Shown: positions 40,494 through 43,909 of the stretch, in pieces
Position numbering within the stretch: position 1 is the first letter of the stretch
How the letters are laid out: every line of letters begins with the position of its first letter
Assembly: GCF_001427285.1 (NCBI RefSeq)
Contig: NZ_LMFV01000061.1
Location: 128,104 to 192,103, forward strand
Origin: Mesorhizobium sp. Root552
Lineage (GTDB): Bacteria; Pseudomonadota; Alphaproteobacteria; Rhizobiales; Rhizobiaceae
Length of the DNA: 64,000 nucleotides
Direction: 5' to 3'
The notes under the pieces: generated by a model
Told to the model about the DNA's origin: nothing
Database searches by the model: none
The model's input: only the letters and a program-made list of their open reading frames with translations
Position numbers and translations under genes: made by a program

Positions 40494-42836
40494 CTACCCG
40501 GCAATCTTCGAGAAATCCGCCACCTGATCGGTCGCGGCGCGGATGCGCGTCAGCAACGCAAGGCGATTGGCCCGCACCGCCAGGTCGTCGTCGTTGACCA
40601 GCACCTGTTCAAAAAATGAATCAACCGGTTCACGCAAAACGCTAAGCGCCAGCATAGCGCCGGAAAAGTCTTCCTTTTGAATCGCTTCGCCAGCTTTCTT
40701 CTCGGCCTGATTCACCGCGTCGAACAGCTTTTTCTCCGCATCTTCCTTGAACAGCGAAGGCTCGACGGCAGCCGCAACGGCGGTGCCCTTCTTCTCCTCG
40801 GCAGCGAGTATGTTGGCCGCGCGCTTGGTGCCGGCGAGCAGGTTCTTGCCGTCATCGGTTTCAAGGAATTCGCCCAGCGCCTCGACGCGACGGACGATCA
40901 TGAGAAGATCATCGGACTCAGGTGTGATCACCGCATCGATCAGATCGTGCCTTGCGCCTTGATCGCGCAGATAGACCTTTAGACGGTCGTGGAGGAATGA
41001 GAGGAGGTCGTAGTTGATCCTTGCTACCATCTCACGCGCTGCACTTATTGCAGCAGACAGGCTAGGCGAGCCCAGTAGCTGTTGAAAGACCTCGTTAGAT
41101 AGAGATTCATCAACAAGCCCGACCGAAGTCAACTTTCTTGCAGCATCTATGTAAGGCCAAGAGTCCTCTTTCTGAAATTTCTGAAAGTAACTCACGGCTG
41201 AGAGGCTAGTGATTTTGACAAGTTGCAGTCTAAGCTCTCTCTCCAGAACGATGCGGATCACCCCCAGTGCCGCTCTGCGCAATGCAAACGGGTCCTTGCT
41301 GCCTGTTGGCTTCTCATCAATCGCCCAGAAGCCGACCAGCGTATCAAGCTTGTCGGCCAGCGCCACGGCGACCGAAACCGGATCGGTCGGCACACGATCC
41401 GACGGACCTTGCGGCTTATAATGATCTTCGATTGCCGCCGCGACCGAGGCATCCTCTCCCTGCAGCAGCGCGTATTTGCGGCCCATCGCGCCTTGCAATT
41501 CAGGGAACTCTCCGACGATCTCGGTGGTCAGATCAGCCTTCGCCAACACCGCCGCGCGGCGGGCCAGAGCAGGCTCGAACCTGGTCAACATCGCCAGTCT
41601 TTCAGCTAACCTGCGAATGCGCGCCACCCGTTCGCCTTGTGTGCCCAGTTTGGCGTGGAAGGTCACGCCGAGATGATCGAGGCGCGCCATGCGCTGGTCG
41701 AGCGGCTTTGCCAGATCCAGCTCGAACTTTTCCGCCGAGCCCTTCAACTGGTCGATGTCAGGCACATTTGCCTGGTCGGTCTTCCAGAAATGCACCGCAT
41801 CGGAAAGCCGTGCCCGCACCACCTTGCCGTTGCCGTGGGCAATTTCCTTGCCGCCGTCCTTCGCCTCGATGTTGGCGACGAGCAGGAAGCGGTTGGCAAG
41901 CGCCTCGCCTTCGCCCTGCGGGCGCGAGACAAAGCACTTCTGGTTGGCGCGGATGGTCAGCCGGATCACTTCCGGCGGGATGGCGAGGAAGTCCTGTTCG
42001 AACTCGCCAAGCAGCACCACCGGCCACTCCACCAGCCCGGACACCTCTTCCAGCAGGCCCTCGTCCTCGACCAGTTCCAGCCCATTGGCAAAGGCAAGGT
42101 TCTTCGCATCCGACAGGATGATTTCCTTGCGCCGGTCAGCGTCGAGCACGACCTTTGCCGCTTCCAGCTTGGTCACATAGTCATCGAAGCGCTTGGCGGT
42201 GATGGCGTCAGGCGCGTGAAAACGATGGCCATAGGTCACGTTGCCGGAACGGATGCCGTCGACCTCGAAGTCGACCACCACCGGCTCTTCCGTTTCCGGG
42301 CCGAAGGTGCACAGGATCGATTGCAAAGGCCGCACCCAGCGCAGCGCATCGCCGCCGCGCCCTTCGACGCCGCGATAGCTCATCCCCTTCGGGCCGGACG
42401 CCGCGCCCCAGCGCATCGATTTCGGCCACGGGAATGCCTTGATGATGCCCGGCATCAAATCGGCGATGATCTCTTCCGCCGCCCTGCCCGGCTTCGAGAT
42501 ATGGGCAACGTAGAAATCGCCCTTCTTCGGATCGGTATGGACGTGCGCCTCGCTGATCGAGCTCAGTCCCGCCGACCGCAGAAAACCCGTGATCGCCTGT
42601 TCGGGCGCCTTCGTGCTCGGCCCCTTGCGTTCCTCGTGAATGTCCTTGGAGCGCGCCGTCAGCCCGCGAATGTCCAGCGTCAGCCGGCGCGGCGTCCAGT
42701 ATTCGCGCGCCGCCTCATAGGTCAGGCCGGCTTCCACCAGCCCGTCCGTCACCAGTTTCTTCAGGTCGCCCGCCGCCTTGCGCTGCATGCGGGCCGGAAT
42801 TTCTTCGGAACGAAGTTCAAGCAGAAGGTCGGGCAT
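40494..42836 (-). CDS. glyS: Glycine-tRNA ligase beta subunit
   Basis: GlyS pairs with GlyQ in the bacterial alpha2-beta2 glycyl-tRNA synthetase and carries the tRNA-binding and C-terminal anticodon parts. The sequence starts [20 protein letters not shown] and shows [20 protein letters not shown], the [17 protein letters not shown] block, and the C-terminal [21 protein letters not shown] anticodon-binding segment. At 780 residues it is longer than the roughly 690 of E. coli. The extra length is at least partly an AT-rich stretch around 41040-41220. The start overlaps the stop of a 39-codon ORF that separates it from glyQ. Confidence 0.96.
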
Positions 42837-42955
42837 CAGAGTTTTTCCACCCGCATGCTATTTTCTTGTTTGCACGTCCTCGCGCCTGCGGCGCTGCGGT
42901 CGTGCGGCTGGGCGGGAATTTCCTCGGAGCGAAGTTCAAGCAGCAGATCAGGCAT
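42836..42955 (-). CDS. 39-codon ORF between glyQ and glyS repeating the glyS N terminus
   Basis: The ATG at 42955 is directly next to the glyQ TAA, and the TGA shares its last base with the ATG of glyS, so it fits exactly between them. The first 15 residues, [15 protein letters not shown], are identical to GlyS residues 1-15. At the DNA level the two copies differ at six third codon positions, all silent. After codon 15 it diverges to [20 protein letters not shown]. It is either a remnant of a second glyS allele left by recombination or a translated coupling peptide; there is no known function. Confidence 0.55.

Positions 42956-43909
<954 letters not shown>

Follow-up and report, generated by a model that had tools for sequence, protein, structure and literature searches.

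A short open reading frame between glyQ and glyS in Mesorhizobium sp. Root552 may mark a small guide-targeted mobile element that repairs the gene it enters

The glyQ-glyS junction and its inserted unit

We analyzed a 64,000-nucleotide (nt) stretch of the genome of Mesorhizobium sp. Root552 (contig NZ_LMFV01000061.1, positions 128,104 to 192,103; hereafter the window), in which a 39-codon open reading frame (ORF) is fitted between glyQ and glyS on the minus strand. The initial annotation of this DNA had noted that the ORF starts directly after the glyQ stop, that its own stop overlaps the glyS ATG by one base, and that it repeats the first 15 codons of glyS with silent changes only. The coordinates confirmed this layout: glyQ ends at 42956, the 39 codons and TGA fill 42955-42836, and base 42836 is common to the TGA of the ORF and the ATG of glyS. 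ORF codons 1-15 equal GlyS 1-15, with exactly six differing third positions and zero nonsynonymous changes (39/45 nt match). The junction was also checked in relatives. The same arrangement occurs in 27 or more of the 146 genomes of the genus, and the 39/45 in-register match is therefore not due to chance.

The 24 codons past codon 15 had been called unrelated to GlyS. This description is incomplete, since these codons encode a hairpin scaffold (E) and contain a guide, GCATGCGGG, which is the reverse complement of the junction (J) at glyS codons 15-18, CCCGCATGC. Read along the minus strand, the order is glyQ, an orphaned glyS start (T), a 119-nt unit, and the glyS body; the unit ends in a second glyS start (T'). 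Judged by the comparison of loci, the unit separates T from J, and T' takes over from the displaced T. Because T' restores its start, glyS is intact. The features are collected in Table 1. We consider it fairly probable that the ORF marks a non-autonomous, guide-targeted mobile element of about 119 nt that repairs the gene it has entered.

Table 1. Features at the glyQ-glyS junction, in window positions
Feature	Positions	Strand	Basis
glyQ (glycine--tRNA ligase alpha), upstream neighbor	42956..43909	-	TIGR00388, PRK09348
39-codon ORF, in which T runs on into scaffold and guide; its stop overlaps the glyS ATG	42836..42955	-	
T, orphaned glyS start (codons 1-15), opening the 39-codon ORF	42911..42955	-	sequence comparison
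Inserted 119-nt unit: scaffold, linker, guide, spacer and restored start T'	42792..42910	-	
Scaffold hairpin E: outer stem GCACG/CGTGC, CC/GG, inner stem GCGCC/GGCGC, A-rich tail	42860..42908	-	covariance model R1, RNA fold
Guide GCATGCGGG, antisense to the insertion junction	42850..42858	-	rule tested on 141 loci
Spacer TGGAAAAACTCTG, 13 nt, resembling a ribosome-binding site (putative role)	42837..42849	-	
T', restored glyS codons 1-15 borne by the insert; start used by glyS	42792..42836	-	
J, junction CCCGCATGC, reaching from T' into the gene body and complementary to the guide	42785..42793	-	
glyS (glycine--tRNA ligase beta), intact	40494..42836	-	TIGR00211

The window scaffold scored 68.8 bits (E-value 9.6e-20) against covariance model R1 (49 positions, 12 pairs), the window sequence itself being among those from which the model was built. 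Its predicted RNA fold equals the consensus structure exactly (z -3.26). Folded as DNA, the window unit forms a stem between guide and J with T' in the loop, which is weaker support, 4 of 200 shuffles folding equally well. In many relatives the stretch of the spacer that resembles a ribosome-binding site reads GTGGAG.

Scaffold, guide and target genes in related genomes

The loci were collected with patterns or models derived from the element itself, and the search for flanking repeats extended no further than 140-190 nt from a scaffold. Within the genus, the 74-nt unique part of the unit was present in 33 of the 146 genomes and the scaffold lay ahead of glyS in at least 27; four genomes (G022, G078, G097, and G102) have two or three tandem units at glyS with a 119-nt period. 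A looser pattern matched 91 of the 146 genomes, a count that we did not take as prevalence because a reversed-pattern control also gave matches. In the family, the exact pattern matched 54 of 394 genomes and 35 of 109 genera; in the order, the covariance model matched 54 of 397 genomes and 25 of 141 genera, with some chance matches included in both counts. The reversed-pattern control of the family scan gave 14 matches. Low-scoring covariance-model matches (L442-L446) were taken as false by eye, and L439, also a match to the model, was judged false and excluded. Among the matches listed, a scaffold with a flanking repeat was found in Mesorhizobium prunaredense, M. xinjiangense, Aminobacter, Hoeflea, Aquibium, Paramesorhizobium, Tianweitania, Rhizobium lemnae, Devosia, and Rhodomicrobium, and the ilvC locus of M. 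prunaredense has the same repeat as that of genome G020. The pattern scan of the genome_contigs collection yielded at least 117 stretches. Eighty were examined as loci and 11 of these had a flanking repeat, in records whose names we take to be those of Hyphomicrobiales. The scan of the viral_contigs collection yielded 47 stretches, none with a gene-end repeat by the filter used. The genome to which the window belongs has three scaffold copies, two of them in tandem units at hisF outside the window (L424:1941-2097, G000:C45), and matching genomes in the order have 1-7 matches each.

Target genes were identified with Pfam/NCBIfam and ARAGORN. There are 13 of them, with 14 sites in all, one weak. 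The 5' end is targeted in glyS, hisF, hisA, cimA, rnhA, one CoA-transferase III gene (the weak case, with a 6-nt guide match), and tRNA-Met. The 3' end is targeted in mmsA, ilvC, sdhB (two sites, the second found by eye), groL, one histidine kinase gene, and tRNA-Gln. Seven genes account for 162 of the 167 repeat-flanked loci (mmsA 53, glyS 48, ilvC 33, hisF 19, sdhB 4, cimA 3, and hisA 2). The common order at the sites is orphan end, scaffold, guide, restored end, and gene, and the gene lay on the guide side of the scaffold in 135/135 classified single-unit loci with enough flank. Units are mostly about 95-140 nt long, and the insert length is mostly constant per target (119 nt in 38/48 glyS intervals, 104 or 107 nt in 14/16 hisF intervals). 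Sites lacking E include 20 glyS loci, and 13 of 30 mmsA loci had no complete scaffold in the 190 nt examined.

An array of scaffolds and a similar-looking hairpin were also recorded. At L420:5670-6090 (G571:C10), about nine scaffold hairpins stand in tandem at 46-48 nt spacing without gene-end copies, adjoining PadR/MarR-like and mechanosensitive-channel-like genes (labels assigned by eye). A Planctomycetota metagenome-assembled genome has, at three places (L301, L330, and L344), a hairpin that shares CCGCAG..GAGGACGCGCAA with the scaffold; its inner stem is longer, no gene-end repeat accompanies it, and it was set aside.

The inner stem of the scaffold varies in sequence while its pairing is kept (mean 3.9 bp in 67 variants vs. 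0.7 when shuffled). We compared 42 scaffolds, one per distinct inner stem, a choice that favors diversity. Paired cells amounted to 97.2% vs. 87.9% in shuffles, and 41 cells had changed on both sides vs. 13.5 in shuffles; 0 of 500 shuffles reached either value. When 12 loci were searched against Rfam 15, no family reached its gathering score at the scaffold; in L074 the scaffold region overlaps one PrrB_RsmZ match, whose 28.2 bits fall short of the cut-off of 44. The same 12 loci gave no Rfam match to group I or group II introns, and splicing is not needed because the gene is restored in the DNA. Kink-turn, attC, and repetitive extragenic palindromic (REP) identities of the hairpin were dropped on inspection for the motifs as we know them.

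In the general order of the element, E is followed by an A-rich linker of 8-11 nt, a guide of about 7-13 nt antisense to J, a spacer, and T'. The guide usually lies 8-11 nt past the scaffold core and is antisense to the join between restored end and gene. This rule was tested on 141 loci, namely the 167 repeat-flanked loci minus 26 that are followed by another unit; L346, which is probably false, was kept as a miss. The longest perfect complement between guide and own junction averaged 7.9 nt, compared with 4.4-4.5 nt for gene-shifted windows and 4.6 nt for the reversed sequence. A complement of at least 7 nt was found at 107/141 own junctions vs. 0, 2, 7, and 4 of 141 in the four shifted windows and 4/141 in the reversed control. 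In a fixed-zone cross-target control, matches were obtained for 163 of 2820 junctions of other targets and for 106 of 141 own junctions. Furthermore, the guide fitted its own junction allele better than the mean of the other alleles in 37/42 mmsA and 27/29 ilvC loci; by this comparison, the guide covaries with the junction allele at both genes. At sdhB of G277, the middle of three tandem units has a different scaffold, and its guide, with one G-T pair allowed, fits a second sdhB site that lies about 105 nt away from the gene end, both as judged by eye.

As one of two explanations, the initial annotation had suggested that the ORF is kept as a translational coupler. The stop of the orphan frame fell within -7 to +5 of the gene start in 47/48 glyS loci and in 16/16 parsed hisF loci (19 hisF loci in total), and four cimA intervals and one hisA interval likewise have the orphan stop near the gene start. 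Because the orphan frames stop near the gene start, the role of the 39-codon ORF at glyS is probably that of a coupler. The suggestion is thus plausible for glyS, and a view limited to glyS does not suit an element found at 13 genes. Residues past codon 15, whose conservation had been proposed as the sign of an established gene, are kept in relatives, yet the scaffold nucleotides are equally conserved outside genes.

Origin of the restored gene ends

We compared T and T' of 27 glyS loci bearing E with 20 native glyS starts from loci lacking it. The distance to the nearest native start averaged 2.3 nt for T and 5.3 nt for T', and T' was the more distant copy in 24 of the 27 loci (1 tie, 2 closer). 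Three orphans were identical to a native start (45/45). The gene-proximal copy begins with ATGCCGGA in 22/27 loci, a form seen in 0/20 loci without E, and T and T' show no amino-acid difference in 23/27 loci. These results agree in general with the earlier proposal that the second copy derives from a functional glyS allele and not from a local copy error. Over the 60 nt that follow T', identity to the nearest relative lacking E, among those compared, is 83-98% (83% in the window). On a tree of the glyS body, the presence of E needs 14 changes, 10 of them forced by starred branches, and its scatter resembles that of shuffled labels (127 of 500 shuffles as low).

Differences between T and T' were synonymous in 183 and nonsynonymous in 6 cases at glyS, and 19 and 3 at hisF. 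At mmsA, 34 gapless pairs gave 58 synonymous and 14 nonsynonymous differences (8 gapped pairs were excluded and the 6 nt beside J trimmed). The mmsA orphan sits beyond the stop codon and is presumably untranslated; since the differences are mostly synonymous even so, T and T' of mmsA look like two functional alleles. By eye, T' at mmsA often begins at the stop codon without the native spacer. Identical pairs also occur (38/38 in L135, 39/39 in L084, and 62/62 in L132), which is compatible with a recent local origin.

At the 3' end of mmsA, a guide-like sequence abuts the stop in some loci without a complete scaffold, for example L467, L484, and L487, and only a partial scaffold is left in L463 (all by eye). 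These loci look like scars of lost elements.

Proposed mechanism, alternatives and known systems

In the mechanism that we propose, the guide would pair with J, as single-stranded DNA or as RNA, and so pick the target. A recombinase acting in trans would cut inside J and insert the unit. T' would render the insertion harmless, and J would be regenerated, so that further units could insert in tandem. In three genes (glyS, hisF, and cimA) the old start would persist as a short ORF, whose ribosomes may reach the gene start and re-initiate there. The elements look like an undescribed, self-repairing class of mobile DNA, and we recognized no published description of them in the PubMed Central articles searched. 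They would be a further form of mobile DNA, with repair patch and target address packed into about 120 nt, and would account for the odd short ORFs and gene-end duplications of rhizobia and their relatives. If the mechanism is true, an altered guide should alter the insertion site. A helper enzyme, if found, could become a compact tool for guide-directed insertion and would reveal how the elements settle in important genes without harm to the host. More tentatively, and with something under even confidence, we suggest a programmable class of mini-elements in which scaffold and guide direct the unit and a replacement gene end into chosen sites within important genes through an enzyme supplied in trans. 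If so, any gene end with a suitable junction would be open to invasion without loss of function, and, if RNA-guided, these elements would rank among the smallest known systems for guide-directed insertion.

Several observations weigh against the reading of the unit as a guide-targeted mobile element. That the units move at all is something we infer from sequence. No mobilizing gene was found in searches for the Y1 transposase PF01797, other enzyme families not being searched, and no autonomous long version was seen within the 140-190 nt in which repeats were sought. PF01797 occurs in 25 of the 146 genus genomes and is absent from the window's own genome; a Y1 transposase as common helper in the genus is unsupported by this count. 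In the window, T and T' lie 3 and 4 nt from the nearest native start, and with so weak a contrast the foreign origin of the window's own T' rests on analogy with the other loci. Differences between T and T' at ilvC are 22 synonymous and 19 nonsynonymous, which makes the argument for two alleles weak at this gene. At glyS the guide shows no better fit to its own allele than to others (25/41 loci; means 7.93 and 7.99), and at hisF the fit to its own allele is worse (4/17; means 6.24 and 6.90). The rnhA orphans are mostly uncoupled (1/14 intervals), and coupling as a universal feature was dropped on this result. In the scaffold sample, base pairs with changes on both sides numbered 4 vs. 3.0 in shuffles (98/500), no excess. 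The array at L420 consists of scaffolds only, without gene ends, and four other loci lack T. Finally, the loci share ancestry, so that the counts overstate their independence.

Among the alternatives, we hold it unlikely that a hairpin element duplicated the gene end through a long staggered cut, with the antisense J arising by template switching and the copies drifting later. Template switching leaves an inverted copy beside a direct copy, and such a pair is what the units contain; moreover, T equals T' in several loci (the three identical pairs above). However, T' does not stem from the strain's own T in several of the glyS backgrounds, the mmsA orphan differs from T' mainly at synonymous positions, and T' at mmsA often lacks the native spacer (by eye).

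It is rather improbable that the loci are footprints of tyrosine-integrase islands, in which T and T' would be attL and attR blocks and the scaffold an internally deleted island remnant or attP. Integrases that restore a gene end classically show targets at gene ends and tRNA genes together with silent differences between the copies, as these loci do, and units are seen to accrete in tandem at a single site. Remnants of different islands, however, would not have in common one hairpin with compensatory changes, joined to a site-matched guide, at 13 unrelated genes, nor does the mostly constant insert size per target speak for them. No integrase was recognized by eye in the ORF lists of the 1.5-kb flanks of four loci lacking T.

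That the scaffold is a cis-regulatory leader of glyS, either a leader peptide or an RNA switch, and not mobile, is very improbable. The hairpin is conserved and, at glyS and hisF, the gene start is where the orphan frame stops, as a leader would have it, but the existence of 3' and tRNA targets disfavors this reading: the scaffold also lies past the stops of mmsA, ilvC, sdhB, and groL and beside tRNA genes. In addition, the glyS scaffold was found by the searches made in 27 of 146 genus genomes, scattered on the tree. Scarcely credible is the idea, raised in the initial annotation, that recombination brought in a new glyS allele and stranded the old start. In most loci (24/27) T' is foreign to the native allele of the recipient, but the insert comprises only about 119 nt, the gene body past codon 15 stays like that of relatives lacking E, scaffold, guide, and other targets are left unexplained, and the multi-target distribution speaks against it.

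Setting the candidate mobile element beside known systems, we found that no family tested fits it. Some prophages and islands, such as e14 in icd, repair the gene at their att site with an element-borne end that has silent changes. Such integrative elements (integrative and conjugative or mobilizable elements and prophages) share with E a gene-end-restoring identity block, here the T/T' repeats of 167 loci; they have integrase genes and kilobases of cargo, whereas the E units have no room for an integrase gene. IS110 bridge RNA and TnpB/omegaRNA place a structured scaffold beside a target-matching guide. Their architecture differs from that of E, for which no enzyme was found in the search described above and an RNA form is putative.

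The nearest mechanical model is the IS200/IS605 family. Passages on IS608 describe a guide adjacent to a hairpin that base-pairs with the cleavage or target site and whose change retargets the element (PMC5934647). E likewise has a guide beside a hairpin and complementary to the target site, and on its opposite strand the order of target, linker, guide, and hairpin is as in IS608. IS608 has two hairpins, 4-nt guides, its own tnpA, and no host gene end, whereas E has one hairpin per unit, a longer guide situated 3' of the hairpin on the modeled strand, no enzyme gene, and a gene-end copy. Transposition of IS200/IS605 needs a Y1 (HUH) TnpA, for which E has no room and which, as PF01797, the window's own genome lacks.

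Mobile ORFs of fungal mitochondria (atp6, atp9, cox2, and nad3 in Allomyces and Glomus) are described, in portions of one article, as replacing a native gene end by a foreign one and orphaning the native end, with atp6 copies 91% identical in amino acids vs. 63.5% in nucleotides (PMC3630166). E shares the foreign gene end and the displaced native end, a likeness that is weak for the window copy and for ilvC. The fungal ORFs include a homing endonuclease and measure about 400-1000 bp, whereas E, at about 120 nt, has no room for such an ORF, is bacterial, has a guide, and also occurs at 5' ends and tRNA genes.

REPs of the GTAG and CGTC types, the subject of work on REP-associated tyrosine transposases (RAYT), are short, non-autonomous, imperfect palindromes in bacteria, and the CGTC types predominate in alphaproteobacteria, apparently without a dedicated transposase, according to excerpts of two articles (PMC3733652, PMC8266576). 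E is also short and non-autonomous, and CGTC REPs, like E, have no known transposase. E differs in being low-copy and bound to gene ends, in its site-specific guide, gene-end copy, and asymmetric internal loop, and its consensus lacks the unpaired GTAG or CGTC tag that a REP, present in many copies per genome, has at one end of a simple stem. The Bradyrhizobium REPs given in part of PMC5082802 do not match E. A REP-like repeat of the form GGCGCTAACGCGCCGACCCTCCCCATCAAGGGGAGGGTG lies directly upstream of the glyS start in several relatives (L012, L013, L019, L027, and L028). In other glyS loci of relatives (L025, L029, and L030, near 1340-1500), in-frame insertions of about 50 codons around GlyS residues 418-422 resemble another dispersed palindromic repeat (AATCTCCCCC..GGGGGAGAT..), and the glyS frame stays open.
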